Source of the DNA: Pseudomonas sp. KU26590
Lineage (GTDB): Bacteria > Pseudomonadota > Gammaproteobacteria > Pseudomonadales > Pseudomonadaceae
Direction: 5' to 3'
NCBI RefSeq assembly: GCF_026153515.1
Contig: NZ_CP110644.1
Coordinates: forward strand, 3,377,501-3,441,500
Length of the DNA: 64,000 nucleotides
Every line of letters begins with the position of its first letter. Within the stretch, counting starts at the first letter, position 1. The notes below the pieces were generated by a model. The model was given only the letters and a program-made list of their open reading frames with translations. It made no database searches and was not told the origin of the DNA. This document shows positions 16,255-54,125 of this stretch, one piece after another. The position numbers and the translations under genes are program-made.

Positions 16255-16314
16255 GGGGCAACTCCGGTGACCATGAAAGCCGTCCGGTGCTGGCGGCTTT
16301 GATACACCCGCTTT

Positions 16315-16329: not shown

Positions 16330-16381
16330 AACGCTATCGGGCCGATTATTCTGGGTGAATGCTTCGAATTGAGGGACATCG

Positions 16382-16399: not shown

Positions 16400-16415
16400 T
16401 TGTGTTGTTTCGCTG

Positions 16416-16431
16416 GCTGTCTTGCGACAGC
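16416..16431. promoter_or_regulatory. Inverted repeat GCTGTC-TTGC-GACAGC
   Basis: Perfect 6-bp arms with a 4-nt centre, 16 nt from the 18-bp palindrome. It could be a second activator site. Confidence 0.3.
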
Positions 16432-16558
16432 GTTTCGCAGCGTGCGGGAAACACGACTGTTTGCCTGGAAACACCTGTTCAGCAAAACGTTGTTTGCCGA
16501 CAGATCTAAAACCCGTGACCCGGTCGTTAACCCGTTGAAATGGCTCTAAATAAACAAC

Positions 16559-16574
16559 TGGCACAGTTGCTGCT
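16559..16574 (+). promoter_or_regulatory. Sigma-54 (-24/-12) promoter of sfnG
   Basis: TGGCAC at 16559-16564, then 5 nt, then CTGC at 16570-16573, giving GG and GC separated by exactly 10 nt. Only one base differs from TGGCAC-N5-TTGC. It lies 80 nt upstream of the sfnG ATG. sfnG homologs are reported to be sigma-54-dependent. Confidence 0.65.
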
Positions 16575-16654
16575 ATTTCCTCAACAGGCAGGTAAACACA
16601 CCGTACTTGGCGACCACGCCGGGCGGCTCCCTTGCTCTATTTGGAGATCGGTAG

Positions 16655-25152: not shown

Positions 25153-26082
25153 TTACTCTTCCAGGGCGCGGGCTCGCTCCAGACGCTGCTCGGCCTTGGG
25201 TTCTGCCGTGCGCTGCAGGGTGAAGTCAAACTCCATTTCGGCGTAACGCCCGGTCGTGCCATGGGCGCGGGCCTTTTCTTCATCGTCGATGAAATGGATG
25301 TCGGCAATCAGTTCATCGCGCGTGGCATAGGCAAAGTCATCATGCAGGTACTGGTCCCCCGCCAGGTTGATCTGGGTGGTCAGGTGGCGATGATTCGGCG
25401 CTGAGATAAAGAAGTGGATATGCGCCGGGCGCTGGCCGTGACGGCCCAATTGGTCGAGCAAGTGCTGCGTCGGACCGTCTGGCGGGCAGCCGTAGCCTGA
25501 CGGCACGATGCTGCGAAAGCGGAAGCGTCCCTCAGCGTCGGTTTCGATACGTCGGCGCAGGTTGAACGCTGATTGCGAGGCGTCGAAATAGGAGTAGGTC
25601 CCGCCGGTGTTGGCATGCCAGACATCGACAATTGCACCGGCCAGCGGCTCGCCGGCGGTGTCCAGAACCCGACCCTGCATGAACAGCACCGTGCCGTTGT
25701 CCTGCCCGTCATCCAGGCGCGCTTCGTGTTGGCTCAATGGAGCGCCGGCTACATACAGCGGGCCTTCGATGGTCCGTGGCGTGCCGCCGGTCAATCCGGC
25801 CACCTGGTCTTCGGCATCCATCAGCAGGTCGAGGTAGTGTTCCAGGCCGAGGCCGGCCACCAGCAGTCCGGCTTCCTGACGGCTGCCCAGTTCATTGACG
25901 TAATTGACCGCTTTCCAAAACTCCTCGGGGCTGATTTGCAGGTCCTCAATGATCTTGATCGAGTCGGTCAGTACTCGATGAACCACCGTCTTCAGTCGTT
26001 GGCTGCCTTGATCGTTGTCAAAGCCGCTGGCTTGCTCGAAAAACTGTTGCACGTCGGCTGTCTGGGATATCCGCACAGTCAT
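25153..26082 (-). CDS. catA: Catechol 1,2-dioxygenase
   Basis: 309 residues, the normal length. It performs intradiol ring cleavage of catechol to cis,cis-muconate using non-haem Fe(III). Ligands are visible at Y163 (GTYSYFD), Y197 (PSGYG), H221 and H223 (RPAHIHFF). The N-terminal helical linker domain (about 1-105) precedes the beta-sandwich catalytic domain, which begins near GGTPRTIEGPLYVAGAP. It is the last gene of catB-catC-catA, 61 nt after catC, with a good terminator beyond. A second catechol 1,2-dioxygenase lies at 54126-55064 in the salicylate cluster. Confidence 0.95.
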   Translation of the reverse strand: MTVRISQTADVQQFFEQASGFDNDQGSQRLKTVVHRVLTDSIKIIEDLQISPEEFWKAVNYVNELGSRQEAGLLVAGLGLEHYLDLLMDAEDQVAGLTGGTPRTIEGPLYVAGAPLSQHEARLDDGQDNGTVLFMQGRVLDTAGEPLAGAIVDVWHANTGGTYSYFDASQSAFNLRRRIETDAEGRFRFRSIVPSGYGCPPDGPTQHLLDQLGRHGQRPAHIHFFISAPNHRHLTTQINLAGDQYLHDDFAYATRDELIADIHFIDDEEKARAHGTTGRYAEMEFDFTLQRTAEPKAEQRLERARALEE

Positions 26083-26143
26083 GGCTTATTCCTCATTTTG
26101 TTTTTATAAACGTCGCTCAGCATCAGGTCGGGCTGGCGGTGGA

Positions 26144-26434
26144 TCAGCGGTCGTCGTCATGCACCGAAGAGGGATGACGACACAGCGCCATGACTTCGAT
26201 GTCCATGAAGGGGTAGAGCGGTAATTGCATCAGCGTGTCGTGCAGCGCCTGGGTGTCGGCCACGTCGAAAATGCTGACGTTGGCGTACAACCCGGCGATG
26301 CGCCACAGGTGGCGCCAGGTGCCTTCGTCCTGCAGACGCTGGGCCAGGGCCTTTTCATCGGCTTTCAAGCGCGCGGCCTGTTCGGCGGGCATGTCGTGGG
26401 GCAGTTTGACGGTCATGCGAACGTGAAACAGCAT
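26144..26434 (-). CDS. catC: Muconolactone delta-isomerase
   Basis: 96 residues, typical of CatC. It begins MLFHVRMTVKLPHDMP and contains KADEKALAQRLQDEGTWRHLWRIAG and the LPLYPFMDIEV segment that the family shares. It isomerises muconolactone to 3-oxoadipate enol-lactone in the ortho-cleavage (beta-ketoadipate) pathway, as a cytoplasmic decamer. It sits between catB (48 nt upstream) and catA (61 nt downstream) in one operon. Confidence 0.95.
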   Translation of the reverse strand: MLFHVRMTVKLPHDMPAEQAARLKADEKALAQRLQDEGTWRHLWRIAGLYANVSIFDVADTQALHDTLMQLPLYPFMDIEVMALCRHPSSVHDDDR

Positions 26435-26482
26435 TGATCTAGTCTCCCTTTTGGTGCGTGGGTCAGTCAGGTGATTCGCGGT

Positions 26483-27598
26483 TCAGCGGCGCTGGAAGTG
26501 CTTCAGACGCTCTTCATCGAGCGCGACACCCAGCCCGGGCAGGTCGGGAATCATCAGTTGAAAATCGCGATAGACCAAAGGCTCGGTCAGGATGTCGTTC
26601 GTCAGCAGCAGTGGGCCGAACAGCTCCGTGTGCCATTCGATGCGCCCCAGTGTGGCAAAGGCATGGGCCGAGGCCAGGGTGCCGATACCGCCTTCCAGCA
26701 TGGTGCCGCCATACAGGCCCAGACCTGCCGCTTCGGCGATGGCCGCTGTACGAAGCACGGCCCTGGGTCCGCCATTTTTGGCGATTTTCAGCGCGAACAC
26801 CGGCGCGGCGCCCGCGCGGGCGAGGGCGAAACTGTCTTCGACGCTTTCAATGGCTTCGTCAGCCATGATCGGCACCGGACTGCGGGCACTGACCCGGGCC
26901 TGGGCTTCGCGATCCTGTCGGGGAATCGGCTGTTCGATCAAATCCACGCCGGCATCGCCGAGCATCTGGCAGCCACGCATGGCAGTGGCTTCACTCCAGG
27001 CTTGGTTGAGATCGACCCGCACACTGGCGCGGTCACCCAAGGCCCGTTTGATCGCCGCCACATGGGCGATGTCTTTGGCGGGATCGCCAGCGCCGATCTT
27101 GAGTTTGAAAACACGATGACGGCGGATGTCGAGCATCCGCTCCGCCTCTTCGATGTCTTTCTCGGTATTGCCACTGGCCAGCGTCCAGGCGACTTCCAGA
27201 CCGTCCCGTACGCGTCCACCGAGCAGTTCGGCAACGGGCAACCCCAGGCGTTTGCCTTGAGCATCCAGCAAGGCCGTCTCGACCGCGGATTTGGCGAAGG
27301 TATTGCCCCGCACCACTTTCTCGATGCGCAGCATCGCGGCGTTGATGTTGGTGGCATCCTGGCCCGTCAGCAGTGGCGCGAAATAGGCGTCGAGATTGGT
27401 TTTGATGCTTTCGGGGCTTTCGTTCCCGTAGGACAGGCCGCCAATGGTCGTGGCTTCGCCCAGGCCTTCGATGCCATCGCTGCAACGCAGACGCAGGATC
27501 ACCAGGGTCTGGCTTTGCATGGTATGCATGGCCAGCTTATGGGGACGGATGGTGGGCAAATCGACGATGAAGGTTTCAAGGCGGGTAATGCTGATCAT
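26483..27598 (-). CDS. catB: Muconate cycloisomerase
   Basis: 372 residues from ATG 27598 (AGGA 8 nt upstream; an open frame to 27667 adds 23 unrelated residues). Member of the enolase superfamily, Mn2+-dependent, converting cis,cis-muconate to muconolactone. The KLKIG base motif (FKLKIGAGDP), RVDLNQAW, LIEQPIPR, MADEAIES and ALKIAKNGG mark the catalytic lysines and metal-binding Asp/Glu residues of the barrel. First gene of catBCA and divergent from catR, with the LysR-type operator in the 134-bp gap. It is the only muconate cycloisomerase in the window, so the salicylate cluster must depend on it or on a copy elsewhere. Confidence 0.95.
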   Translation of the reverse strand: MISITRLETFIVDLPTIRPHKLAMHTMQSQTLVILRLRCSDGIEGLGEATTIGGLSYGNESPESIKTNLDAYFAPLLTGQDATNINAAMLRIEKVVRGNTFAKSAVETALLDAQGKRLGLPVAELLGGRVRDGLEVAWTLASGNTEKDIEEAERMLDIRRHRVFKLKIGAGDPAKDIAHVAAIKRALGDRASVRVDLNQAWSEATAMRGCQMLGDAGVDLIEQPIPRQDREAQARVSARSPVPIMADEAIESVEDSFALARAGAAPVFALKIAKNGGPRAVLRTAAIAEAAGLGLYGGTMLEGGIGTLASAHAFATLGRIEWHTELFGPLLLTNDILTEPLVYRDFQLMIPDLPGLGVALDEERLKHFQRR

Positions 27599-27696
27599 AG
27601 GAAGATCCTGTTCGAGGATGTATGGAGCGTGTCCATATCCCTGAGGTTTGTTTTTATCTGAGGCCAAGGTTGCATCGCAGCGGGAGCAAGGTCCAA

Positions 27697-31072: not shown

Positions 31073-32212
31073 TTATGCCGAAGGCTTGAGTACCACTTTG
31101 GTCCAGCCGTCCGCCCGCGCATCAAATTGCTTGTAGGCTTCCGGGCCTTCAGACAACTTCAGGCTGTGGGAGATAATCTGCGATGGCTTGGCGCGGTCAT
31201 GGTGGATCAACTCGGCCAGACGACGGTTGTACGCCTTGACGTTGGCCTGGCCAGTACGGATCTGCTGACCTTTGAACCAGAACGAACCGAAGTCGAAGGC
31301 CATCTTGCCTTCCTTCGCCAGATCGCTTGCAGCGTTCGGGTCTTGCGGCACGAAAACACCCACGACACCGATACCGCCCGTTGGCTTGGTGGAGGCCACC
31401 AGGTTGTTCATGGTCTCGTGATTGGCTTCATGGCCATGCTTGTCGCAGCACTGATAACCCACGCATTCGCAGCCACGGTCCGTGCCTTTGCCGTTAGTCA
31501 GATTCAGAATCTGCTCCACGGCTTGCGTTTGTGAGGTGTTGATCGGCGTAGCGCCCAGCTTGGCCGCCAGTGCCAAGCGGTCTGGATGGCTGTCGACGAC
31601 GAAGACTTGTGACGCACCTTTGATCATCGCTGAATGGGCAGCCATCAGTCCGACCGGACCTGCGCCGTAGATAGCGATGCTCTCACCGGGTAACAAGCCG
31701 GACAATTCAGTCGCGTGCCAGCCCGTTGGAAGGATGTCCGAGAGCATGACGTAGTCGTCTTCTTTCTCCTTGGCGTCCTCAGGGAGCACCAGGCAGTTGA
31801 AGTCGCCATAGGGCACGCGCAGCAGTTCAGCCTGGCCACCCTGGTAAGGGCCCATGTCCGCAAAACCGTAGGCACCGCCGGCGCTGCCGGGGTTGACGGT
31901 CAGGCAGTAGCCCGTCAGGCCCCGCTCGCAGTTGTCGCAGAAACCACAACCGATGTTGAACGGCAGGCAGACCATATCGCCTACTTTCACGCGGTCAACT
32001 GCGGCGCCCACTTCGATGACTTCACCCATGTTCTCGTGGCCCAGGATTCTGCCGGTTTCGAAGCTGGTGCGTCCTTCGTACATGTGCAAGTCAGAACCGC
32101 AAATATTGGTCGTGGTAATTCGGACCAGGACATCAGTTGCTTTTTCGATCTTTGCATCGGGAACGTTTTGAACGCTGACGTCGTGAGGACCGTTGTAAAT
32201 GATGGCTTTCAT
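31073..32212 (-). CDS. Zinc-dependent alcohol dehydrogenase, glutathione-independent formaldehyde dehydrogenase-like
   Basis: 379 residues of the medium-chain dehydrogenase family. Catalytic zinc site: NICGSDLHMYEGRT and GHENMGEV; structural zinc site: GCGFCDNCERGLTGYC; NAD(P) Rossmann motif GAGPVGLMAA. The GGAYGFADMGPYQGGQAELLRVPYGD and ECVGYQCCDKHGHEA stretches place it in the group of Pseudomonas glutathione-independent formaldehyde dehydrogenase, though it is about 20 residues shorter than P. putida FdhA. It stands near the glutathione-dependent formaldehyde genes at 32649-34741. It may act on another alcohol or aldehyde. TTAGGAG precedes the ATG. Confidence 0.8.
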   Translation of the reverse strand: MKAIIYNGPHDVSVQNVPDAKIEKATDVLVRITTTNICGSDLHMYEGRTSFETGRILGHENMGEVIEVGAAVDRVKVGDMVCLPFNIGCGFCDNCERGLTGYCLTVNPGSAGGAYGFADMGPYQGGQAELLRVPYGDFNCLVLPEDAKEKEDDYVMLSDILPTGWHATELSGLLPGESIAIYGAGPVGLMAAHSAMIKGASQVFVVDSHPDRLALAAKLGATPINTSQTQAVEQILNLTNGKGTDRGCECVGYQCCDKHGHEANHETMNNLVASTKPTGGIGVVGVFVPQDPNAASDLAKEGKMAFDFGSFWFKGQQIRTGQANVKAYNRRLAELIHHDRAKPSQIISHSLKLSEGPEAYKQFDARADGWTKVVLKPSA

Positions 32213-32648: not shown

Positions 32649-33218
32649 TCAGAGCACGCCGTTTTGCTTGGCGGTATGAGTGGCCAGGGCATCCATCAAT
32701 GCTGGAGACAAGCAGTCGTAAGTAGGCAGGCCGATCTCGTTGAAGCGCGCGCGGATGCCGTCCATCTCGGCCGGAGGGGTGCCGGTTTCGATGACCGACG
32801 ACACGAATGCGGCGAAGCCTGGAGCAGCCCAGCCGGTCTGAGGCGAGAGTTCGGTGTGCACGAAGTCCAGACCGTGGAACGCGTGGCCCGTGTTTTCGAT
32901 GCGACCGTAGAGATGCGCGCCGCACTCTTTGCAGGCGTGACGCTGGATGGTGGCGCTTTCGTCAACGATGGCCAGTTTTTCAGCGTTGGCGGTCACGCTG
33001 ACGGTGTCGCGTGGAACGACAGCGATGACAGCGAATTTCGCGCCTTCAGGCTTCCAGCATTTGCTGCAACCGCACGCGTGGTTGTGCAGGGTCTGAGCGT
33101 CGATCTTGACTTCGACCTTGTTGCTCGCGCACAGGCACTGCAGGGTACCGCCATCGAAGCCGGCGGCGGCGGGTTTGATGCCGTTGTCTAGCGAAGGGTG
33201 CAGTTTTACGTTGCTCAT
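32649..33218 (-). CDS. gfa: S-(hydroxymethyl)glutathione synthase
   Basis: 189 residues. Gfa-type zinc protein with Cys motifs [21 protein letters not shown] and [13 protein letters not shown], which hold the zinc centres of the family. It promotes condensation of formaldehyde with glutathione to S-hydroxymethylglutathione, the substrate of the dehydrogenase encoded 71 nt upstream. GGAGAT precedes the ATG. Last gene of the frm-type operon, followed by a terminator. Confidence 0.92.
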
Positions 33219-33289: not shown

Positions 33290-34465
<1,176 letters not shown>

Positions 34466-34741
34466 CTATTTCAGGTACGTGCGCACCAGAGAAACCACTT
34501 CATCAATCGACGAGCGCTGCGCCTCGGTCGTTTCTACCAAATTAGTGAATTCTTCTCTGAGGTGGCTTTCCAGCACGCCAGCCATCAGACCGTTGACGGC
34601 GCCGCGTATGGCGGCGATCTGTTGCAGGACCGGCCCGCAATCAGCGCCTTTTTCAAGCGCTGCTTCCAAGGCATCCAACTGGCCCCTGACACGTCTCACC
34701 CTTCCCAGTACGCGTTTCTTCTCAGCAGGTGAATGTGGCAT
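34466..34741 (-). CDS. frmR: Formaldehyde-sensing repressor FrmR (RcnR/CsoR family)
   Basis: 91 residues, all-helical DUF156-type repressor. The residues known to detect formaldehyde in E. coli FrmR are all present: Pro2, Cys35 and His60. Formaldehyde cross-links Pro2 to Cys35 of a neighbouring subunit and releases DNA. The gene heads the frmR-frmA-gfa operon, and GGAG lies 8 nt before the ATG. The three 23-bp repeats at 34783-34851, with G-tract centres flanked by TACT and AGTA, look like its operators. Confidence 0.92.
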   Translation of the reverse strand: MPHSPAEKKRVLGRVRRVRGQLDALEAALEKGADCGPVLQQIAAIRGAVNGLMAGVLESHLREEFTNLVETTEAQRSSIDEVVSLVRTYLK

Positions 34742-34782: not shown

Positions 34783-34851
34783 GGTACTGGCAGGGGGTAT
34801 GTCTAGGTACTGGTGGGGAGTATATGCAGATACTGGCGGGGAGTATATAGA
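34783..34851. promoter_or_regulatory. Three tandem 23-bp repeats, probable FrmR operator array
   Basis: Units start at 34783, 34806 and 34829, exactly 23 bp apart. Consensus GRTACTGGYRGGGRGTATRT. In each, TACT and AGTA (GGTA in unit 1) flank a 7-nt G-rich centre, the operator architecture of CsoR/RcnR/FrmR proteins (AT-rich inverted ends around a G/C tract). The array sits 42-110 bp upstream of the frmR start and is unlike the single-site control of E. coli frmR. Confidence 0.65.
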
Positions 34852-34894: not shown

Positions 34895-35239
34895 TCATTC
34901 AGCCTGCAGTTGCCTGCTCACGAGGGTTGCCAAGCTGCGAATGCAGGCTTCATTGCGCCGGAGAAAGTGCACAGTCCCGGATTTGCGCTGTTCCACCAGA
35001 CCGGCAGCCTTGAGGAGTGCCAGGTGACTGGAAACAGTTGATTGGGGGAGATCGCATCGCAGCACTATCTGGCCGATGCACACCCCAAGGTGCTGGCCGT
35101 ACTCCTGATCTGGGAAATACCGCAACGGCTCCTTGAGCCACTGCAGGATTTCACGCCTGACGGGGTGAGCGATGGCGCGGATTGAAACCTGGAAATCCGG
35201 GGGCACCAGTGGCAAGTCTTCTTCTGAATGCGATGACAC
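34895..35239 (-). CDS. ArsR-family winged-helix regulator
   Basis: 114 residues from GTG 35239 (AAGGA 8 nt upstream). ArsR/SmtB fold: AIAHPVRREILQWLKEP, then the recognition helix DLPQSTVSSHLALLKAAGLVEQRKSG and the beta wing TVHFLRR. Cysteines are scattered (VCIGQIVLRC, EAC) and do not form the classical CVC metal motif, so it may respond to an organic or redox signal. It begins 20 nt after the stop of the luciferase-like monooxygenase gene and is probably the last gene of that operon. Its position just before the frmR operator array raises the possibility of cross-control. Confidence 0.85.
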   Translation of the reverse strand: MSSHSEEDLPLVPPDFQVSIRAIAHPVRREILQWLKEPLRYFPDQEYGQHLGVCIGQIVLRCDLPQSTVSSHLALLKAAGLVEQRKSGTVHFLRRNEACIRSLATLVSRQLQAE

Positions 35240-35259
35240 GGTTTGTCCTTTTTGTCGAA

Positions 35260-36243
35260 TCAGTCCAGCAGGTCTGCGATGGATTCAGCGGCAAGCTGAT
35301 AGGAGCGGCACCGTGCATCGGGATCATGAATCCTCGCATCGATGATCACTTCGTCAGCCTGGGTCGTGGCGATGAACTGCCGCAGCCAACTGCCAACATC
35401 GTCTTTGTCGCCAACAGCGGTACAGGACATGGTCTGCGTCAGGGTCTGTCGATCCAACTCTGAGAGCCGCTCGATGTAACCTTCTTCGGGGAGTGGCAGC
35501 AGCCCTGGCTTGCCGGCATACAGCCTGCTCACCCATTGCTGATGAGAGCTGGCGTGGTACTGCGCTTCTGCACGGGTTGCTGCTGCAAAGACATTGGCGC
35601 CGGCAATCACGTAGGGTTGCTTGAGCATGGCCGAGGGCTTGAATGTGGCGCGGTAGTGGGCGATTGAATCCATCAGAAACCGCGGTGCGAAATGCGAGGC
35701 GAACGCGTAGGGAAGCCCCAGTTTCGCCGCCAGATCTGCACTGTTGGGGCTGGAGCCCAGCAGCCAGATCGGCACGCTGTGATTGCCCGGAATCGCACGC
35801 ACAGGCTGGCGGCCGTCGTCCGCCAGGTAGTCGGTCAACTGACGTATGTCCTGGGTGAAATCCCGTTCCGACGAATCACCACGCAGGGCGCGAATTGCCG
35901 GCCCCGCCGAGCCCGGCGCTCTCCCTACGCCCAAATCAATACGCCCTGGAAACAAGGTGTCCAGCGTACCAAACTGTTCCGCGACGCTTAGCATCGAGTG
36001 GTTGGGCAACATGATGCCGCCTGAGCCGACACGCAGGTTTTGGGTAGCGCCAGCCAGGTGTTGAATAAGCAGCGCAGTCGCTGCCGAGGCAATACCGGGC
36101 AGGTCGTGGTGCTCCGCGACCCAGTATCGTGTGTAACCGCTGCGCTCGACGCTACGTGCCAAAGTGGCGGCATCGGCGAGGGTGTGGGCGAAGGTCTTGC
36201 CTTCGCCGATCATCATCAGGTCAAGAACCGAAAGCGCTGTCAT
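35260..36243 (-). CDS. Luciferase-like (LLM) flavin-dependent monooxygenase, MsnO8/YhbW type
   Basis: 327 residues. TIM-barrel with LLM hallmarks: SGYTRYWVAEHHDLPGIASAATALLIQHLA, LRVGSGGIMLPNHSMLSVAEQFGTLDTLFPGRIDLGVGRAPGS and the PIWLLGSSPNSADLAAKLGLPYAFASHFAP block. Known relatives use FMNH2 or F420; Pseudomonas relatives more probably use FMNH2. Substrate unknown. It is fourth in a five-gene operon with two TIM-barrel isomerases and another LLM enzyme, and 45 nt downstream of the isomerase gene. AGGAA lies 7 nt before the ATG. Confidence 0.87.
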   Translation of the reverse strand: MTALSVLDLMMIGEGKTFAHTLADAATLARSVERSGYTRYWVAEHHDLPGIASAATALLIQHLAGATQNLRVGSGGIMLPNHSMLSVAEQFGTLDTLFPGRIDLGVGRAPGSAGPAIRALRGDSSERDFTQDIRQLTDYLADDGRQPVRAIPGNHSVPIWLLGSSPNSADLAAKLGLPYAFASHFAPRFLMDSIAHYRATFKPSAMLKQPYVIAGANVFAAATRAEAQYHASSHQQWVSRLYAGKPGLLPLPEEGYIERLSELDRQTLTQTMSCTAVGDKDDVGSWLRQFIATTQADEVIIDARIHDPDARCRSYQLAAESIADLLD

Positions 36244-36288
36244 TGCATATTCCTGGTTGTGGGCTCAAGGGGAGGGCAGAGAGCGTGA

Positions 36289-37095
36289 TTACTTCAACGG
36301 AAAGTCTGCCCAGTTCAAATGCTTCTCCAGCCTGCGGTCCATGTCTCGAAGCGTGACCAGACAGCGCTGCAATTTAAGGTAGATATCGCCACCGTAGTCC
36401 CAGCCGAGCACACCGATACTGCCGGTGTAACCGATGCGGTCCAGTGCCGCGAGCACGGCGAAATTGTCCATCTCGCCCCGGTCTACCGGCTCCATGGTTG
36501 CAACGCCGCCCCAGCCCAGCTGCGACAGTGCGCTGCCAGAGGTCACGACCTGCATCAGCCAGGGTTTCATGGCGTCAAGCCGTTCCTGGAGTTTGCCTTC
36601 CTGGCTGGCGTACCAGTGGTACGCATTGAAAGAGGCGCCCAGGCGTGGATGGTTGAAGTGCTCGCAGATCTCCACGACCTGCGTGGTGGTTTGCGTCACG
36701 TGGTGCAGGTGCGGATAAAGCGCGATGCGCAACCCGCGCCGCTCGGCGATGGGCAGCAAGGACTCGATAAACCGAAGGATCGCTGGACTGCCGTTGACTG
36801 AGGTCTGGACCGCCAGTTCGATCAGCTCCACGCCTTCGACTGACTCGATGATCCGCCTCAAGACGTGGTCATTGCGGCCTTCGTGCAGCACCAGGTAGAG
36901 CGCCTCGACCTTCAGGCCATGTTGTTCCCTGACGCGGGGGAGCAGCGTCAGATCAGTCAGCGGGCTACCGCTCCATGCAGAGACGGTGATCCCGTCATAG
37001 CCCAGGTCTGCGAGCATCTCGCACTGGCTCTGGAACGCGTAAACGCCCATGGACGAGTAGAAGAACGAGTCCAGGGCATGAATGGAATGAGTCAT
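36289..37095 (-). CDS. TIM-barrel sugar isomerase/epimerase-like protein (AP-endonuclase-2 family), paralog 1
   Basis: 268 residues. Pattern of the xylose-isomerase-like superfamily: QCEMLADLGYDGITVSAW, VEALYLVLHEG, VELIELAVQ, GLRIALYPHLHHVTQTT, LGASFNAYHWYA, GGVATMEPVDRGEMDNFAVLAAL and GVLGWDYGGDIY. The His, Glu and Asp residues in these strands are the usual metal ligands. It closely parallels the next gene along almost its whole length, so the two arose by tandem duplication. Natural members isomerise or epimerise sugars or cleave related compounds. Nothing here fixes the substrate. 16 nt separate it from paralog 2. Confidence 0.8.
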   Translation of the reverse strand: MTHSIHALDSFFYSSMGVYAFQSQCEMLADLGYDGITVSAWSGSPLTDLTLLPRVREQHGLKVEALYLVLHEGRNDHVLRRIIESVEGVELIELAVQTSVNGSPAILRFIESLLPIAERRGLRIALYPHLHHVTQTTTQVVEICEHFNHPRLGASFNAYHWYASQEGKLQERLDAMKPWLMQVVTSGSALSQLGWGGVATMEPVDRGEMDNFAVLAALDRIGYTGSIGVLGWDYGGDIYLKLQRCLVTLRDMDRRLEKHLNWADFPLK

Positions 37096-37111
37096 TGAAT
37101 CGCTCCTGCGC

Positions 37112-37912
37112 CTAGTAAGGCAGCTCGTTCAGCACGGCCCATTCGGGGTGGGCCGCCAACCTTTGCTCCATGGAGCGGAAAGCCTTCTCGGATCGATGCA
37201 GATTGCCGTACACATCGCCTCCCATGCTTTCCCAGCCCAGCACACCCACCCGGCCGTTGAAGCCGCGGCGCAGCAGCGCACCCATGAGCACGAAGTTGTC
37301 CATCTCGCCCTCATCCAGCGGCTCGATGGTTGCCAGGCCGCCCCAACCCAGGGGGGAGCGTCTGGTTCCGGCGATAATGACCTGGTGTAGCCATGGCCAC
37401 ACCGCGTCAAGCCGTTGCTCCAGCAATTTCTCCTGAGTGGCGTACCAGTGGTAACCGTTGAACACGATGCTTAGAAGCGGGTGGTTGAACTCCTCGCAGA
37501 GCGCCACGGCTTGCGACGTGGTTTGCATGCCATACCGTGCATGGGGATAGAGCGCGATTTTCAGACCGCGACGCTCGCAGATGGGAAGCAGATGCTCAAG
37601 CATCCGTCGGTCCAGGTCGGTGACGGTTTCGCCGGAATGCAAAGCCAGTTCGATGGTTGAGCAGCCTTCGACCGATTCGAAAATCTGTGTGACGAACGAC
37701 TCCAACCCCTGGCGGTAGATCAGATAGATCGCGCCAACATCCAGGCCCCATGTGGGCTTGATAAGCGGGATCGATTTGAGATCGTTGCTCCATGCCGACA
37801 TCGTGAGGCCCTGGTAGCCGTTCTCGGCGAGCATCTCGCACTGCGCAGCCAGCGGGTAAGTCCCCAGCGCGGTCTGAAAGATGAAATCCATATGGTGAAG
37901 ATCGAGTTTCAT
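37112..37912 (-). CDS. TIM-barrel sugar isomerase/epimerase-like protein (AP-endonuclase-2 family), paralog 2
   Basis: 266 residues, collinear with paralog 1: QCEMLAENGYQGLTMSAWS, GAIYLIYRQGLES, GLKIALYPHARYGMQTT, LSIVFNGYHWYATQEKLLEQRLDA, GGLATIEPLDEGEMDNFVLMGALLRRGFNGRVGVLGWESMGGDVYGNL. The putative metal residues are kept in both copies, so both are probably active, perhaps as a heteromer or on successive intermediates. The ATG overlaps the stop of the upstream LLM gene by 4 nt, which implies tight co-expression. Confidence 0.8.
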   Translation of the reverse strand: MKLDLHHMDFIFQTALGTYPLAAQCEMLAENGYQGLTMSAWSNDLKSIPLIKPTWGLDVGAIYLIYRQGLESFVTQIFESVEGCSTIELALHSGETVTDLDRRMLEHLLPICERRGLKIALYPHARYGMQTTSQAVALCEEFNHPLLSIVFNGYHWYATQEKLLEQRLDAVWPWLHQVIIAGTRRSPLGWGGLATIEPLDEGEMDNFVLMGALLRRGFNGRVGVLGWESMGGDVYGNLHRSEKAFRSMEQRLAAHPEWAVLNELPY

Positions 37913-38925
37913 CGAGAAGCACTCCCGTGGGGCGGGTGAAGGGGTGAGGTACGCGTCGGGAAGTGCGGCAGTACATATTCCCCCAACTCGTCCACGACCT
38001 CGGCGGCATGGCGGCGTTGCGGCTTGAAGTGCAAGGCAACGTGGCCCACCCCCAATTCCTCCTGGCGCTTCCAGAGTTCGATCAACGCATTGCGGCCCGC
38101 ACGCAAAACGCGGCCTGGCTGCACCGGACAGTTGGGGTCACGGTCCAGATCAAACAGCGTGCCGTAGCCGTAGGGCTTGTAGCCATTTACGCCGCAAGCG
38201 ATACGCCAGCGCTCAGTGACCTGGGCGACCAGCGCAGGATTGGAAATGTAGGAAAGAATCCCGTCGGCGTTTTCCCCAATCCACTCCAGCGACTGGCCTG
38301 ACTGGCCGATGACAATGGTGGGAATCCGTGGACCCACGGGTTTGGGAACCAGATCGATCGCACCGTCCAATTGCCCGTAGAACTCGGTCGAGCGCCGCGG
38401 CCACGACTGTTCCGTTACCGTGCGGATCAACGCAAACGCATCGCGAAAGCGCGCCGCACGGCTGTCGAAATCGATGCCGAAGGCCGGGTACTCGGTAGGG
38501 CGATCACCGGTGGCGACGCCCATGATGAATCGACCGCCCAGCAGTTGGTCGACGCTGGTGGCTTGCTTGGCGACGATCAGTGGGTCGCGTAACGGGAGCA
38601 CGATGCCCGCAGTGCCGATGGTGATCTGGCGGGTCACGGCAGCCAGATAGCCGGCATAGATCATCGGGTCAAGGATCTGGCCGACGTCCCCGAAATTCGG
38701 GTCCCAGAACGGCACGTCCCGCAGCCAGATGGCGGCAAAGCCGGCTTCGTCAGCCTTTTGCGCCATGGCGACATGATCCTGCAAGGTCGGTCCGGGGCTG
38801 TCGGGGTAGCTTTCCAGCGGCGCGATGAAGCCGAAGGTTAAATGGCCCGGTTCAAACACGCGCGAATAACCGGGGTGAAGCTGGAGTTGCGATGAAAGCC
38901 CCTCGGTGGGGGATACAGAAGACAT
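37909..38925 (-). CDS. Luciferase-like (LLM) flavin-dependent monooxygenase, first gene of the operon
   Basis: 338 residues. LLM features: HLTFGFIAPLESYP, AQKADEAGFAAIWLRDVPFWDPNFGDVGQILDPMIYAGYLAA, ITIGTAGIVLPLRDPLIVAKQATSVDQLLGGRFIMGVATGDRPTEYPAFGID and IPTIVIGQSGQSLEWIGENADG. It resembles LLM oxidoreductases of the TIGR03571 sort rather than its 327-residue operon partner, so the two LLM enzymes are not recent duplicates. No flavin reductase gene is adjacent. It is divergent from the LysR gene at 39081, with a T-N11-A inverted repeat in the 155-bp gap. GGGAAG precedes the ATG. Confidence 0.85.
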   Translation of the reverse strand: MSSVSPTEGLSSQLQLHPGYSRVFEPGHLTFGFIAPLESYPDSPGPTLQDHVAMAQKADEAGFAAIWLRDVPFWDPNFGDVGQILDPMIYAGYLAAVTRQITIGTAGIVLPLRDPLIVAKQATSVDQLLGGRFIMGVATGDRPTEYPAFGIDFDSRAARFRDAFALIRTVTEQSWPRRSTEFYGQLDGAIDLVPKPVGPRIPTIVIGQSGQSLEWIGENADGILSYISNPALVAQVTERWRIACGVNGYKPYGYGTLFDLDRDPNCPVQPGRVLRAGRNALIELWKRQEELGVGHVALHFKPQRRHAAEVVDELGEYVLPHFPTRTSPLHPPHGSASR

Positions 38926-39036
38926 GGACGGCTTCCCGAATGGATGGATGGCCGTTAGGCGGCACCCGGATTTGAGCGATAAATGCTGATGACGAAGACT
39001 ATATCGGTAATTCCGTTGGCGAAAAATAGGCTAGAA

Positions 39037-39080: not shown

Positions 39081-39962
39081 ATGGATCACTTTGGGGCGCT
39101 GGGCGCGTTTGTCCGTACTGCGGAAACCCGCAGTTTTACCGAGGCGGGGCGTCGTGTTGGCGTGTCCTCATCGGCAGTGGGAAAGGCTGTGGCCCGGCTT
39201 GAGGCGGAGCTCGGTGTCAGGCTTTTCCACCGGTCGACACGGGCGGTCACCTTGACCGCAGAGGGCGAGCTGTTTCTGGAACGCTGCCGGCGGATTTTCT
39301 CTGAGTTTGAAGTCGCCAAGCGCGAGCTCTCCCAGGCTGCCGGCAAGCCTCAAGGCAAACTCAGGATCGGTTTGCCACAGTTGGGCATGAGCCTGATGCC
39401 GCACCTGATCGCGTTTCAGCAAGCCTACGGCGAAGTCGAGCTGGAGCTTGAATTCAGCGACCGTCTGGTCAACGTTATCGAGGACGGGTTTGATGCGGTC
39501 ATACGCATCGGTGAGGTGGAAGATTCGCGGCTGACCATGCGCAGGCTCAAGGGCTACAGCCATCGGCTGGTGGCGTCGCCGTTGTACCTTGATGAAAAAG
39601 GCACCCCGACGCATCCATCCGAACTGGGCGCTCATTCCTGCTTGCGCTATCGCTACCCCACCAGTGGCAAACTCGATCCCTGGCCGCTGGTGGTGCAGGA
39701 GGATGAACGCAGCATTGACGTGGCGGCCACGGCGACAGCAAACGCCATTGAGCCTTTACTCGCCATGGCGCTGGCAGGCCGGGGCATCGCTTGCCTGCCG
39801 GACTTCTTTGTTGAAAGCGCCGTGGCCGAGGGACTGCTCGTCCCTGTCCTGGAAGGGTATCTGCGTGATCACCGAACGGTCAGCATTCTCTGGCCCTCAA
39901 GCCGTCAATCCCTGCCCAAAATCAGCGCCTTCGTGGAATTCATGGTCGCCCGACTGGCCTGA
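39081..39962 (+). CDS. LysR-family regulator divergent from the LLM/TIM-barrel operon
   Basis: 293 residues. The helix-turn-helix is ETRSFTEAGRRVGVSSSAVGKAVARLEAELGVRLFHRSTRAVTLTAEG, of the CrgA-like branch, with the effector domain about 90-290 (KLRIGLPQLGMSLMPHL, EDGFDAVIRIGEVEDSRL, LLAMALAGRGIACLPDFF). AGGAAG lies 7 nt before the ATG. Position and the inverted repeat at 39037-39053 make it the likely activator or repressor of the five-gene operon at 34895-38925. The inducer is unknown. Confidence 0.88.
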   Translation: MDHFGALGAFVRTAETRSFTEAGRRVGVSSSAVGKAVARLEAELGVRLFHRSTRAVTLTAEGELFLERCRRIFSEFEVAKRELSQAAGKPQGKLRIGLPQLGMSLMPHLIAFQQAYGEVELELEFSDRLVNVIEDGFDAVIRIGEVEDSRLTMRRLKGYSHRLVASPLYLDEKGTPTHPSELGAHSCLRYRYPTSGKLDPWPLVVQEDERSIDVAATATANAIEPLLAMALAGRGIACLPDFFVESAVAEGLLVPVLEGYLRDHRTVSILWPSSRQSLPKISAFVEFMVARLA

Positions 39963-40224: not shown

Positions 40225-40623
40225 TCAGGCCCTGGACGGCTTTGCAGCGAAGGCACCTTCGCCGAGCAACGCTACGACCAGCGCCGTGACAGCCAGATAG
40301 ATCGGGTATTCCCAGCCGCCATTCGGGTTGGTAAAGCTCCAGCCGTTGGCGAAATGCACGGTCGCTGCGACAAACAGCTGAACAACAGCGAGTGCTGCCA
40401 CCAGGCGGGTATACACGCCGAGTATCAACATTAAGCCGCCGATGACTTCAAACGCCATGACGGGGTAAGCCAGGAAGCCGGGGAAGCCGATGGACTCGAA
40501 AAAGCCTACGGTGCCCGCCGGCGTGAAGACCAATACCTTGGTCAGGCCATGGGCGAGAAACATGACGCCCAAGGCCAGGCGCATAACCAGTGCTGCGTAA
40601 GGGGCAGTGCGTGAATCAATCAT
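40225..40623 (-). CDS. DoxX-family membrane protein
   Basis: 132 residues with four hydrophobic helices (about 8-28, 48-68, 72-92, 108-125). DoxX signature stretches are RLALGVMFLAHGLTKVLVF, GFFESIGFPGFLAYPVMAFEVIGGLMLILGVYTR and FANGWSFTNPNGGWEYP. Bacterial DoxX proteins are inner-membrane proteins, some tied to quinone or thiol redox stress; the activity is not established. Last gene of a four-gene operon with an esterase, a DODA-like dioxygenase and an NADPH oxidoreductase. AAAAAAGGA precedes the ATG. Confidence 0.85.
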   Translation of the reverse strand: MIDSRTAPYAALVMRLALGVMFLAHGLTKVLVFTPAGTVGFFESIGFPGFLAYPVMAFEVIGGLMLILGVYTRLVAALAVVQLFVAATVHFANGWSFTNPNGGWEYPIYLAVTALVVALLGEGAFAAKPSRA

Positions 40624-40651
40624 GATGAAGTCCTTTTTTGATGGGTCGTTG

Positions 40652-41323
40652 TCAGTTGGAAAGCGAGAGTGTCTGGGTCAGCCAGCGGGAAAAATCCGCC
40701 AGCTCTTGCGGTACGATCTCGTGAGCCATGTCGTAAAAATGCGTCTGGTGTTCCACGCCAATCCGGCTCAGCCATGCATCGGCTTCGTGGGCCCAATCAA
40801 CCGGCAGGACGTTGTCCTGATGTCCGTGCGCAATGAAGGCCGAGACCGTTTTCAGCCGCTCTGGCGCAGCGATCAGCGGTTCGATTTCCCGCAGCATCCT
40901 TCCGCTCAGCAGTGCAAAACCCGCCACCAGTTCCGGCTGCGTGACGCCAACGCTGGAACTCATGATTCCGCCCTGACTGAAACCTGCAATCACGGTAGGC
41001 AGCGCAGGGAGAGCCTCGATGAACTGGATCAACAGCTGTCGGCTGGCTTCGGCCTGCTGCTGGTTGAAAGACGGGCCGTTGCTGGTGAAGTTGACCTGAT
41101 ACCAGGCAAAACCCTGGGGGCCAAGCTGCAACGGGCCGCGCAGCAAGAGGATTTCAATGTCTTCAGGCAGCGAAGTTGCCAGAGATGCCAGATTCGCTTC
41201 GTTCGAGCCCACGCCATGGAGCAGCAGCAGACGACCTTTCGGGCTAACGCTGTTGCACGCCTTGCGGAAGAAAATACCCGACTCGGCCTCGCGTGCCGGA
41301 TCTGAAAAACTGATGGTCTGCAT
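40652..41323 (-). CDS. Carboxylesterase/phospholipase-type alpha/beta hydrolase
   Basis: 223 residues, normal for the YpfH/carboxylesterase-2 family. Nucleophile Ser in GFSQGG, oxyanion region LLLLHGVGSNE, acid in HGHQDNVLPVDWA and His near FYDMAHEI. It hydrolyses small or lipophilic esters in the cytoplasm; no signal peptide. It begins 4 nt after the dioxygenase stop and is 28 nt from doxX, so all three are co-transcribed. Confidence 0.86.
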   Translation of the reverse strand: MQTISFSDPAREAESGIFFRKACNSVSPKGRLLLLHGVGSNEANLASLATSLPEDIEILLLRGPLQLGPQGFAWYQVNFTSNGPSFNQQQAEASRQLLIQFIEALPALPTVIAGFSQGGIMSSSVGVTQPELVAGFALLSGRMLREIEPLIAAPERLKTVSAFIAHGHQDNVLPVDWAHEADAWLSRIGVEHQTHFYDMAHEIVPQELADFSRWLTQTLSLSN

Positions 41324-41327
41324 GAGG

Positions 41328-42161
41328 TTATGCCACGCCTTTTAGGGGTTGAAGGGATGTGGACGGCTCGTTAACGGGTAACGTGAAGAGGTAACTGTCC
41401 ATGGCCAGTACGCCGTGGGTAATGCCCCCCTCCAGAACGTGCGTCTGATACGTTTCGCCCGCTGCACCCAGCGCTATGAACAGGGGCAGAAAGTGTTCAT
41501 CGGTCGGGTGCGCCCGCTGGGCGGAAGGCGCGAATTGCTTGTAATCGAGCAATTGATCGAAGTTTCGCGCTTGCAGGGTCTGGGCCGTCCAGGCTGCAAA
41601 CTGTTTGACGTAATCGGCCCCATGGGGTGTTGCCCCACGGAATTCGTACAAGTTATGGGTCAGGCTGCCTGACGCCACGATCAACACATTCATCTCGCGC
41701 AGCGGCTTGAGGGCTTCGCCCAGTTTCCAGGCGCTGCGTGTATCGAGTGATGCGGGCATGGAGACCTGAACCACCGGTATGTCGGCGTCTGGCGCCAGGT
41801 AGCGCAGGGGTACCCAGGCGCCATGATCGAGCCCGCGGTTCGCGTCCAGCCGCGAGTCCCAACCGGCCGTTTGCAACAGCTCCACGATATGGCTCGCCAA
41901 CTCTGGCGCACCGGGTGCCGGGTAGGACAACTCATACAGCGCGTCGGGAAAGCCGCCAAAGTCGTGAATGGTCTTTGGAAAAGTACTGGCGGTGACACTG
42001 ACGTGATCGCGGGTCATCCAGTGCGGAGAAAGGATCACGATGGCGTCAGGTCGCGGCATTGCTTGACCGAGCGCAGTGAGGTTCTTGCCTGCCAGGCCAG
42101 GTTCCATGGCGAACGAGGGAGCGCCATGAGACACAAAGAGCAGTGGGAATAAGGTGTTCAT
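41328..42161 (-). CDS. DODA-type extradiol aromatic ring-opening dioxygenase (YgiD-like)
   Basis: 277 residues of the LigB/DODA superfamily. Metal-site His candidates lie in FVSHGAPS, ILSPHWMTRDHV, GSLTHNLYEF and HPTDEHFLPL. It also has the family segments FGGFPDALYELSYPAPGAPELA and NRGLDHGAWVPLRYL. Relatives open the ring of DOPA-like catechols with Fe or Zn; in bacteria the physiological substrate is generally unknown. Second gene of the operon 42818 to 40225, in which an NADPH oxidoreductase, esterase and DoxX protein suggest quinone/catechol detoxification. AGGAG lies before the ATG. Confidence 0.86.
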   Translation of the reverse strand: MNTLFPLLFVSHGAPSFAMEPGLAGKNLTALGQAMPRPDAIVILSPHWMTRDHVSVTASTFPKTIHDFGGFPDALYELSYPAPGAPELASHIVELLQTAGWDSRLDANRGLDHGAWVPLRYLAPDADIPVVQVSMPASLDTRSAWKLGEALKPLREMNVLIVASGSLTHNLYEFRGATPHGADYVKQFAAWTAQTLQARNFDQLLDYKQFAPSAQRAHPTDEHFLPLFIALGAAGETYQTHVLEGGITHGVLAMDSYLFTLPVNEPSTSLQPLKGVA

Positions 42162-42188
42162 GACGACTCCTGTTTGATGACGTGGGTA

Positions 42189-42818
42189 TTACTTGCTCAG
42201 CCAGACCGGGGCGACGGTGGTGCCCAGACCTGCGCCATAGCCCAGATAAATATTCAGACCTGCCAAAGGCTCCAGGTAGCGAGCGTTGACCAGACCACCG
42301 GCATCCACCGTGTTCCAGCCCAGGCTGCGGGCCAATGCGATGGCCGTCTGCTTGGCGCGCTCGCTGTCGCTGGCGACAAACACGCTGCCGGTCTGGTCGT
42401 TGGCGAACGTGGGACCGTCGGCCAGCACTTGAGCGAACAGGGTGTTGAACGCCTTCACGACATGGGCCTGTGGCACGGACTTGGCGATCTCTTCCGAGGC
42501 GCTGGTCACGTGGCCAACCGTCAGCGACATGAAGTCGGCGCTCAGAGGGTTGGTGATGTCGATGATGACTTTGCCGCTCAGATCGCCCAGGCTTTGCAGC
42601 GCTGCAGCGGCATCCGGGTAAGCGGTTGCAAGGACAACCACGTCGCTGTCGTTCAGTGCTTCAGATGCGGTGTGAGCGCTGACATTGGCGAACTGATCAG
42701 CCAGGGCCTGTGCCTTGCCAATGTCACGTCCAGTGACCCGAACGGTGTGGCCTGCAGCCGAAAGCTGTTTCGCAAATGCCGAACCCATGTTGCCGGTACC
42801 AATCAATGTAATTTTCAT
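42189..42818 (-). CDS. NADPH-binding oxidoreductase of the F420-reductase-like family
   Basis: 209 residues from ATG 42818 (GAGG 7 nt upstream; the open frame extends to 42926 without support). Rossmann start MKITLIGTGNMGSAFAKQLSAAGH with the NADP-type VTGRD after the second strand, followed by DVVVLATAYPDAAAAL, VIIDITNPLS, HVVKAFNTLFAQVL and SVFVASDSERAKQ. Pseudomonads generally lack F420, so the acceptor is probably another compound. First gene of the operon, divergent from the LysR gene at 42929 with a 110-nt gap. Confidence 0.83.
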   Translation of the reverse strand: MKITLIGTGNMGSAFAKQLSAAGHTVRVTGRDIGKAQALADQFANVSAHTASEALNDSDVVVLATAYPDAAAALQSLGDLSGKVIIDITNPLSADFMSLTVGHVTSASEEIAKSVPQAHVVKAFNTLFAQVLADGPTFANDQTGSVFVASDSERAKQTAIALARSLGWNTVDAGGLVNARYLEPLAGLNIYLGYGAGLGTTVAPVWLSK

Positions 42819-42928
42819 AAGTGCCTCGTTTTGAGTTGAGTTGCGTTTCGATGGGCTCAGTTTATAGATTGCCCTACTGGGATAAACCGGGCTAAATGTG
42901 ATGAATAGTTCCGCATAGTGAGACAATC

Positions 42929-46969: not shown

Positions 46970-47554
46970 TCAACCCTTGATCCAGCTGCCATCCTGCTGC
47001 GCATCAATCTCGATGTTGAAGGTCTGGAGATAGCCAGACACCATCCGGTAGTAACCGATGACGATGACTGCGTCGCTCAATTCCTGAAGCGAGAAGTGCT
47101 GCTGTGCATGCTTGAACAGCACACCGGGCGCCTTGCCCTTGTCAATAATGGCTTGTCCGAACCGAAGCAGAACGCGCTCGTCTTCTTTGAACGCGACGGT
47201 ATCATCGAGGCGGCCTTCTGCAATGGCGACGAACTGCTCCGGACGAACACCCGCCACCTGAGCGATGGAAATATGCTGCTCCCATTCATAAGCAACGTTT
47301 TCGTGGGCAGCCAGCAGCAACACCAGCAACTCTTTATGGTAATCGGAGATCGTCAGGTCCCTGAATATCGCGTTGGTCAAATCGATGACGGGAATAAACG
47401 CCCCGGCGCTGTAACCCAGCATCCGAAAGAAATTAACTTTCGTTGGCAGGTTCTCAAACTTTTCTCTGACCGGATCGGGCAGTTTTGAAAAATCCGGATA
47501 CTCGATCTCAACCTTGGAACTGATGGTGTCATTGGCGAGGGTGGGCTTGCTCAT
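46970..47554 (-). CDS. AhpD/carboxymuconolactone-decarboxylase-fold protein lacking CxxC
   Basis: 194 residues from ATG 47554 (AGGAG 7 nt upstream). Helical AhpD-like fold with YHKELLVLLLAAHENVAYEWEQHISIAQVAGV and DAVIVIGYYRMVSGYLQTF. The E-x7-H pattern remains, but the CxxC pair of peroxidase-active AhpD is absent, so peroxidase activity is unlikely. Some such proteins decarboxylate or isomerise aromatic lactones. It lies just downstream (45 nt) of the MFS exporter gene on the same strand and is probably co-transcribed. Confidence 0.8.
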   Translation of the reverse strand: MSKPTLANDTISSKVEIEYPDFSKLPDPVREKFENLPTKVNFFRMLGYSAGAFIPVIDLTNAIFRDLTISDYHKELLVLLLAAHENVAYEWEQHISIAQVAGVRPEQFVAIAEGRLDDTVAFKEDERVLLRFGQAIIDKGKAPGVLFKHAQQHFSLQELSDAVIVIGYYRMVSGYLQTFNIEIDAQQDGSWIKG

Positions 47555-47599
47555 AGGGCACTCCTGTAGAGGCAAATAGATTGTCGTTTGGTAGTTTAT

Positions 47600-52778: not shown

Positions 52779-54068
52779 ATGAGCAGTACTCAATCAAAAC
52801 TACAGATCGCAATCGTCGGTGGCGGTATTGCAGGCATCGCGCTTGCGCTGGATTTATGCCGCCACGCTCATCTCGATATCCAGCTGTTTGAAGCCGCCCC
52901 TGCATTCGGTGAAGTCGGGGCAGGCGTATCTTTTGGTGCCAACGCCGTACGTGCCATCGAAGGGTTGGGCATTGGCAAGCCGTATCAGCGCATCGCTGAC
53001 CGCACCCCCGAACCCTGGCAGGACATCTGGTTTGAATGGCGTCGTGGCACAGACGCCGGCTATCTGGGGGCAAGCGTTGCGCCGGGGGTAGGCCAGTCGT
53101 CGGTGCACAGAGCCGACTTTCTGGACGCCCTGGCCCACGAGTTACCCCCTGGCATCGCTCGGTTTGACAAACGTGCGGTCACCCTCGAAGAGGTCGCCGA
53201 CCGGGTTCGAATTGGTTTCCTGGACGGCACCGAACACACCTGTGATCTGCTGATCGCGGCCGACGGCATCAAGTCCTCGATTCGTGATTATGTCTTGCGG
53301 GGTCTGGGTGAGCCTGCTGTCGCACCCCGTTTCAGTGGCACCTGCGCTTACCGTGGAATGATTGACAGCGAGACGCTCAGGGAAGCTTATCGCGCTGCCG
53401 GCATCGATGAGCATTTAATCAATGTCCCGCAGATGTACCTGGGCCTGGATGGCCACATCCTCACCTTCCCGATCAAACAAGGCCGGCTGATCAACGTCGT
53501 GGCCTTTGTCTCCGATCGTAGCGTTCCTGACCCGCAATGGCCCCAGGACAAACCCTGGGTAAAAAATGCGACCCAGGCCGAAATGCTCGATGCGTTTTCG
53601 CAATGGGGAGACGCGGTTCGGGTGCTACTCGAGTGCATTCCTGCGCCCACTCTCTGGGCACTTCATGATTTGGCCGAGCTGCCCGGCTACGTCCACGGTC
53701 GTGTGGCCCTGATCGGTGACGCAGCGCACGCCATGCTTCCCCATCAAGGCGCCGGAGCCGGTCAAGGCCTCGAAGATGCCTGGTTGCTGGCGCGGTTACT
53801 GGCTGATCCTCAGCTGGGCCACGAAAACATAAAGCGCGTACTGGAGGTTTACGACGCAGTACGCAGACCGCGTGCGTGCAGGGTTCAGCGGACTTCATGG
53901 GAAGCCGGTGAACTGTACGAATGGCGTGATCGTCAGGCCGGCGATGACCCGGCCGTGCTGTCAACGACTCTCGCCAACCGGTTCGACTGGCTGTGGAACC
54001 ACGACATGGAAAACGACCTGGCAAGCGCTCGCGTTCAGCTCGGGTGGCAAACGGCAGCCGTACGCTGA
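52779..54068 (+). CDS. nahG: Salicylate 1-monooxygenase (salicylate hydroxylase), NahG-like
   Basis: 429 residues. FAD monooxygenase: GxGxxG in IAIVGGGIAGIALALDLCR, middle motif DLLIAADGIKSSIR, and the second FAD motif GRVALIGDAAHAMLPHQGAGAGQGLEDAWLLARLL. FEAAPAFGEVGAGVSFGANAVRAIEGLGIG and APGVGQSSVHRADFLDAL match NahG closely. It converts salicylate to catechol and CO2 with NADH and O2. First gene of the operon nahG-catA-alcohol dehydrogenase-aldehyde dehydrogenase-outer-membrane protein, under the NahR-like protein. Confidence 0.93.
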   Translation: MSSTQSKLQIAIVGGGIAGIALALDLCRHAHLDIQLFEAAPAFGEVGAGVSFGANAVRAIEGLGIGKPYQRIADRTPEPWQDIWFEWRRGTDAGYLGASVAPGVGQSSVHRADFLDALAHELPPGIARFDKRAVTLEEVADRVRIGFLDGTEHTCDLLIAADGIKSSIRDYVLRGLGEPAVAPRFSGTCAYRGMIDSETLREAYRAAGIDEHLINVPQMYLGLDGHILTFPIKQGRLINVVAFVSDRSVPDPQWPQDKPWVKNATQAEMLDAFSQWGDAVRVLLECIPAPTLWALHDLAELPGYVHGRVALIGDAAHAMLPHQGAGAGQGLEDAWLLARLLADPQLGHENIKRVLEVYDAVRRPRACRVQRTSWEAGELYEWRDRQAGDDPAVLSTTLANRFDWLWNHDMENDLASARVQLGWQTAAVR

Positions 54069-54125
54069 TTTCCCCGGACTCTTGGTCCACTGCACACCCT
54101 TCAATAATAAAAAAGGAGCCTTAAC

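Follow-up and report, generated by a model that had tools for sequence, protein, structure and literature searches.

We identified a conserved four-gene module within an operon of Pseudomonas sp. KU26590, in a 64,000-nucleotide stretch of its 6.18 Mb chromosome (the window, to which all coordinates refer). The operon comprises five minus-strand genes with intergenic gaps of -4, 16, 45 and 20 nt, which encode, in order, a luciferase-like monooxygenase (LLM1), two paralogous barrel proteins (TIM1 and TIM2), a second luciferase-like enzyme (LLM2) and an ArsR-type regulator, and a LysR-type regulator gene lies divergent to them. Judged by sequence comparison between loci, the real unit is LysR-LLM1-TIM1-TIM2, an accessory module of patchy distribution, with LLM2 and ArsR as add-ons of some loci. 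We tentatively propose that the operon may serve, once induced, to detoxify a reactive compound derived from a phenol or quinone, more than to support growth, a reading that we regard as plausible while stopping short of calling it probable. The gene families and gaps given in a preliminary description of this DNA agree with the coordinates and with Pfam matches that all exceed their cut-offs, and its view of the operon as uncharacterised stands, since searches of the open-licence literature aimed at the gene set found no description of it. The module combines known kinds of enzyme with a divergent barrel family, in a conserved arrangement that, as far as we have searched, has not been described.

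LysR, LLM1, TIM1 and TIM2 occur together at all 26 loci from named genomes, and also at L051, L067 and L068. The loci compared were these 26, one on an Erwinia pyri plasmid (L029) and further genome stretches, and counts were made over 32 of them, a family being scored as present from any tblastn piece of at least 35% identity (at least 40% for LysR, LysR2, FrmA, FdhA and ArsR). LysR was found at 31 loci, LLM1 at 30, TIM2 at 32, LLM2 at 24 and ArsR at 15; the corresponding 32 of 32 for TIM1 includes cross-matches to TIM2, and by best position TIM1 is missing at L058 only. The 32 exclude the single-barrel loci L048-L050 and, as strain repeats, L030-L034, L040, L042-L045, L055, L057, L060, L061, L063 and L066; L009 and L012 are nearly identical and, like the two Sphingobium loci, do not count as independent, and part of the gene calls were made with a simple script based on codon usage instead of a standard gene finder. 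LLM2 is absent from eight of the 32 loci (two Sphingobium, Pseudoxanthomonas, Halotalea, its relative L067, Erwinia, a contig of a Pseudomonas metagenome-assembled genome, and L058) and ArsR from 17, while at L051 and L052 the ArsR gene adjoins esterase and LigB genes. The five-gene operon as a functional unit was therefore rejected, because LLM2 and ArsR are dispensable across loci; what survives of the five-gene set in the neighbourhood search is LLM1 with the two barrels. Of the two regulators assigned to the operon, LysR looks cognate whereas ArsR looks like a looser neighbour. The ArsR protein scores 52.4 bits against the metalloregulator model NF033788, under its cut-off of 55, and passes the general HTH_5 model. 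Pairwise distances of LysR, LLM1, TIM1 and TIM2 correlate at 0.82-0.88 (435 locus pairs).

The region between LysR and LLM1 points to a local mode of regulation. An alignment of 29 such regions (the window, L001-L026, L029 and L041) contains one sharply conserved block, the palindrome TTCCG-N7-CGGAA, followed by CCTATTTTTC and then by a TATAGT-like box, which in the window comes 17 nt further on. The palindrome pattern, a probable LysR operator on sequence grounds, is present in 28 of the 29 regions and is one base off at its left edge in L024. It differs from the T-N11-A inverted repeat previously noted here, its T to A spacing being N13 (or N15). The TTTTTC-like and TATAG-like blocks of the putative LLM1 promoter are kept in most aligned loci. 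In its extended 33-base form the palindrome occurs once in the genome at up to three mismatches. A dedicated, local role is thus the most likely one for LysR, and the idea of a wider LysR regulon was dropped because of the same single occurrence. With a palindrome conserved in this way, the inducer is open to direct testing. At 39081-62899 the window also carries a dense run of LysR-type-looking regulator genes, several of which adjoin small detoxification-type genes.

The module is sparsely distributed. In a sample of 298 Pseudomonas genomes 11 gave a match, of which seven have two barrels without internal stops, one is broken (G655) and the remaining three, one of which has a stop within the matched part, are of the single-barrel type. 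Other samples gave 1 of 369 genomes for the class (the genome studied here), 3 of 398 for the phylum (all Pseudomonas, this genome included), 2 of 298 for the Sphingobium family (one broken) and 4 of 250 for the Halotalea family, and the holders named by a protein search include a Sphingobacterium, a Paenirhodobacter, an Azotobacter and a Rahnella. The nearest locus is that of Pseudomonas graminis, whose module proteins are 97-99% identical. This patchy, sparse distribution suggests gene transfer. The Erwinia pyri plasmid holds the sole TIM1 match among 72,556 plasmid records, and its copy is probably decayed, because TIM2 is split over two frames and neither barrel appears in the (incomplete) gene table. 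At L058, from the Sphingobium family, LLM1 is gone and the decayed set consists of LysR and a broken TIM2 only, and at L052 (Pseudomonas) the barrels are frame-broken and LLM1 is absent. Taken together, the decaying copies at L052, L058 and L029 indicate that the trait is dispensable. A distant version of the module is found in three Pseudomonas genomes, where one barrel (about 40% identical to TIM2) stands beside an LLM1 relative (about 45%); the relative at L048 is also a TIGR03571 protein (425.9 bits).

TIM1 and TIM2 are 49% identical to each other. Both exceed the AP_endonuc_2 cut-off of 31.1 (49.3 and 49.2 bits), which places them in this barrel-fold superfamily, and structure models and PDB matches give both a xylose-isomerase-like fold; neither matched an NCBIfam model. 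The canonical metal ligands of this fold are Glu, Asp, His/Gln and Glu on strands 5-8. In four ordinary family members from this genome the residues retained at these positions are E (H-rich in the IolE-like member), D, Q/H and E. In contrast, all four are replaced in 78 of 78 rows of alignment A2 (Y 78; N 77, S 1; V 59, N 9, T 8, D 2; L 77, M 1) and in 35 of 35 rows of alignment A3 (Y 35; N 33, H 2; N 19, V 11, T 3, I 2; L 33, M 2), some rows being shared between the two, the assignment being one of alignment in which the placement of strand 5 is uncertain. Other barrel residues are invariant in the aligned sequences. Judging from these replacements, the barrels have very probably lost the canonical metal site. 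Ordinary sugar isomerisation is unlikely because the canonical ligand positions are replaced, and the earlier assignment of the barrels to isomerising or epimerising sugar-like compounds is probably mistaken; databases label these proteins 'sugar phosphate isomerase/epimerase'. The metal-dependent epimerases UlaE (3cqj), Art22 (9koj) and IolI (1i60) are 8-18% identical to the barrels and differ from them at the four replaced ligand positions. One observation counts against the loss of metal: given the uncertain alignment of strand 5, an invariant His two residues further on might work as its counterpart does in the IolE-like protein, and the barrels may have a shifted metal site. They would then be metal-dependent isomerases with a relocated site, in an operon catabolising an unusual sugar-like compound, a reading that is made decidedly improbable by the replacement of four canonical positions in every aligned row and their retention in the ordinary relatives of the same genome. 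When the barrels are placed in a tree, TIM1 (100/99) and the single-barrel type come out as separate groups and TIM2 is weak as a group (50/90), with a program warning of long-branch joining and an arbitrary root; a single old duplication is likely to lie behind TIM1 and TIM2.

LLM1 matches TIGR03571 (BA3436) over the whole profile with 379.3 bits (cut-off 303.9), and its nearest solved chain is 2b81 (E 3.3e-67, aligned residues 16-324), which is named only 'luciferase-like monooxygenase'. The TIGR03571 model carries no function, and the open-licence literature searched gave no description of such an enzyme paired with barrels. A function for TIGR03571 enzymes would follow from solving the operon, 2b81 having been solved without one. 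LLM2 is of the MsnO8 type, well above the TIGR03558 cut-off (393.6 against 166.95 bits), yet it falls below that of the PRK10508 equivalog NF007802, which we take to be YhbW (342.9 against 540). With regard to cofactors, CofH gave no match in the genome at E<=0.001, against matches in 11 of 14 control genomes (three over the cut-off). Reduced flavin is therefore a likelier cofactor for LLM1 than F420, and the latter was dropped.

The luciferase-like enzymes could also be taken, as in the suggestion of a sulfonated substrate, for two-component sulfonate or sulfone monooxygenases that scavenge organosulfur compounds and release sulfite and formaldehyde. SfnG and MsuD are likewise luciferase-like enzymes with reduced flavin as co-substrate, and they are presumed to convert methyl groups to formaldehyde (PMC8234197); an SfnG dimethylsulfone monooxygenase gene (16655-17755, 623.6 bits, cut-off 382.95) lies 17 kb away. 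However, LLM1 and LLM2 belong to other subfamilies, LLM1 scores far below the cut-offs of SfnG (35.6 against 382.95 bits) and NtaA/DmoA (30.8 against 279.7), and no alkanesulfonate monooxygenase model was among the matches listed (25 of 33 families). No sulfur gene was identified among the recurring neighbours, some clusters of which were not identified. Organosulfur scavenging thus appears very unlikely. The SfnG gene adjoins an oppositely oriented SfnB-like oxidoreductase gene (287.6 bits against a cut-off of 430.9; 15016-17755 region).

In the proposed detoxification, LysR would sense the reactive phenol- or quinone-derived compound, presumably the inducer, and switch on LLM1-TIM1-TIM2. LLM1 would then oxygenate the compound with FMNH2 and O2, and TIM1 and TIM2, probably as a heteromer, would either perform a metal-independent acid-base step on the product or hold it; tautomerisation, ring opening and bond cleavage are candidate steps. 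Formaldehyde would perhaps be one product, sensed by FrmR and drained by frmA and gfa next door, although we consider its release as a step rather doubtful. A more specific version, in which TIM1 and TIM2 form an obligate heteromer that acts directly with LLM1 as a new, metal-independent kind of enzyme with the xylose-isomerase fold, dismantles a quinone-type or methoxylated aromatic poison in a new two-step reaction, releases formaldehyde and has passed between soil and plant bacteria by gene transfer, is improbable in its entirety. Solving the operon would test the use of a metal-free barrel and show which compound is handled by this patchy island.

We also found that several detoxification-type families recur around the module. 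Within about 10 kb, the 32 loci include LigB at 21, esterase at 20, DoxX and alpha/beta hydrolase at 17 each, F420_oxidored-like reductase at 16, FrmA at 15, Gfa at 12, FrmR and tautomerase at 11 each and ABM at 10. At the ten loci outside Pseudomonas the figures are tautomerase 8, ABM 6, FrmA and alpha/beta hydrolase 5, LigB 4, FrmR and Gfa 3, esterase 2 and DoxX 1. Neighbour order and orientation differ between loci. In the window the hydrolase, ABM and tautomerase genes lie 5-12 kb upstream, the ABM label coming from the Erwinia annotation and similarity, with no Pfam match. On the Erwinia plasmid there are also genes for glutaredoxin 2 and a gamma-glutamylcyclotransferase as well as a GST-type gene, a glutaredoxin 2 gene is present in the window at 58804-59496, and the vicinity of L048 includes an N-ethylmaleimide-reductase-type enzyme and a quinone-reductase-like gene. 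Neighbours of this kind may point to stress from quinones, aldehydes and other thiol-reactive compounds. By kinds of gene, the arrangement can be likened to the E. coli YhaJ/yqjF system, in which a LysR regulator goes with DoxX-type and detoxification genes; yqjF is of the DoxX type and reportedly linked to quinones, and we know of no LLM or barrel genes in that system. YhaJ/yqjF is described as a response to aromatic compounds (PMC5031710).

The borders originally drawn at ArsR cut a natural neighbourhood, for frmR, frmA and gfa continue on the same strand from 34741 down to 32649. As in the frmRA(B) operon, FrmR and FrmA score above the cut-offs of their models and operator-like sites precede frmR; these genes are, however, neighbours and not part of the operon, the sites number three, and Gfa is found here as against FrmB in E. 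coli. A second FrmA copy, 74% identical, is encoded elsewhere in the genome, and the gene at 31073-32212 falls below the cut-off for glutathione-independent formaldehyde dehydrogenase (TIGR02819, 336.5 against 636.95 bits). The FrmR-type pattern matches the window seven times at up to three mismatches, twice perfectly, where 2.6 matches would be expected. The three sites resemble the type I sites given in PMC5146963, where TACTGGGGGGNAGTA is the RcnR site and FrmR sites are flanked by ATAC/GTAT, and where the tandem sites of the E. coli promoter are 31 bp apart. With a strict pattern, FrmR-type sites were found in six of the 15 relatives scanned (three each in L001, L004, L009, where one stands apart, and L011; two in L010; one in L014) and none in the other nine. 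In the five genomes checked there are one or two strong FrmA copies per genome; chance is therefore an unlikely explanation for the linkage of FrmA to the module in Pseudomonas, Sphingobium, Halotalea with L067, and Erwinia. A linked frmA in Pseudoxanthomonas was considered and rejected, as two copies exist, the stretch around one has no operon and L024 has no frmA. At L007 (P. fildesensis) the start of LLM2 merges into the end of frmA at about 8843-9124, with an apparent deletion of the intervening genes.

Table 1. Features of the operon and its surroundings (window coordinates, except for the loci in the last row)
Feature	Position	Strand	Description
LysR-type regulator	39081..39962	+	Pfam HTH_1 and LysR_substrate; divergent; conserved core
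Palindrome TTCCG-N7-CGGAA	39037..39053		Probable LysR operator, from sequence; between LysR and LLM1
Promoter-like TTTTTC - 17 nt - TATAGT	38998..39026	-	Putative promoter of the LLM1 operon, read from sequence
LLM1	37909..38925	-	338 aa; Pfam Bac_luciferase above cut-off; core
TIM1	37112..37912	-	266 aa; xylose-isomerase-like barrel without canonical metal ligands; Pfam AP_endonuc_2; core
TIM2	36289..37095	-	268 aa; TIM1 paralog, same ligand loss; Pfam AP_endonuc_2; core
LLM2	35260..36243	-	327 aa; MsnO8-family luciferase-like oxidoreductase; Bac_luciferase; accessory
ArsR-type regulator	34895..35239	-	114 aa; HTH_5 36 bits, cut-off 22; loosely linked
Three tandem FrmR-type operator-like sites	34785-34799, 34808-34822, 34831-34845	+	23 nt apart; 0, 0 and 2 mismatches; precede frmR
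FrmR, formaldehyde-responsive repressor	34466..34741	-	Neighbour; NF008464 146 bits, cut-off 133
FrmA, S-(hydroxymethyl)glutathione dehydrogenase	33290..34399	-	Neighbour; TIGR02818 731.7 bits, cut-off 543.95
Gfa, glutathione-dependent formaldehyde-activating enzyme	32649..33218	-	Neighbour; TIGR02820 340.2 bits, cut-off 234.55
DoxX, esterase, LigB-type dioxygenase, F420_oxidored-like reductase	40225..42926	-	Neighbour block; Pfam matches; recurs elsewhere
OprB-porin loci	L003, L005-L007, L012, L015, L016, L018	opposite to operon

Several points weigh against detoxification by a conserved module. FrmA, too, follows the core, with distance correlations of 0.66-0.79 (105 pairs), and gives 0.09 (45 pairs) with LLM2; given the former, the values within the core partly reflect plain shared descent. 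The loci compared are often close relatives and the neighbour counts have no proper background rate, the control consisting of two stretches only, of which L053 (chosen for frmA) has formaldehyde genes only and L054 none. L019 and L006 have none of ten detoxification families, L019 showing a weak DoxX match. Formaldehyde release is not required, because the Vreelandella, Zobellella and Pseudoxanthomonas loci are without frmA in the stretch examined, and the operon carries no flavin reductase. In addition, a carbohydrate-type OprB porin gene lies downstream on the opposite strand at eight of the 26 named loci, all Pseudomonas, in most cases accompanied by an aldehyde dehydrogenase gene, which was found at 11 loci in total including Halotalea, and by SDR genes, and a flavin-binding monooxygenase is encoded at six; as a group these genes look catabolic.

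Based on these recurring downstream genes, the operon might instead serve growth through catabolism of a plant phenolic or cyclic compound, which LLM1 would oxygenate or demethylate and the barrels would process further, passing carbon to central routes. At 25153-27667 and 52779-55064 the window encodes a route from salicylate to muconate, with salicylate 1-monooxygenase, two catechol 1,2-dioxygenases, muconate cycloisomerase and muconolactone isomerase all above curated cut-offs, genes that also count in favour of the detoxification reading, and transporter genes occur near single loci (Sugar_tr/MFS near L048, a sodium:solute symporter near L022). However, the salicylate and catechol genes are about 6-13 kb off and known from the window alone, the OprB group is limited to some Pseudomonas loci on the opposite strand and is perhaps a separate catabolic operon, and the spread is as sparse as 11 of 298 Pseudomonas genomes, three of them with only the single barrel. 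Phenolic catabolism is, for these reasons, somewhat unlikely. The catabolic role first suggested for the operon thus keeps some ground beside those Pseudomonas loci that have OprB and aldehyde dehydrogenase, while detoxification is the reading that we favour.

Two minor observations concern the remainder of the window. The second catechol 1,2-dioxygenase gene is followed by an ADH-family and an aldehyde-dehydrogenase-family gene. The protein encoded at 46970-47575, which has no Pfam or NCBIfam match, begins with a sequence resembling the start of a protein encoded beside the Sphingobium copy L023.

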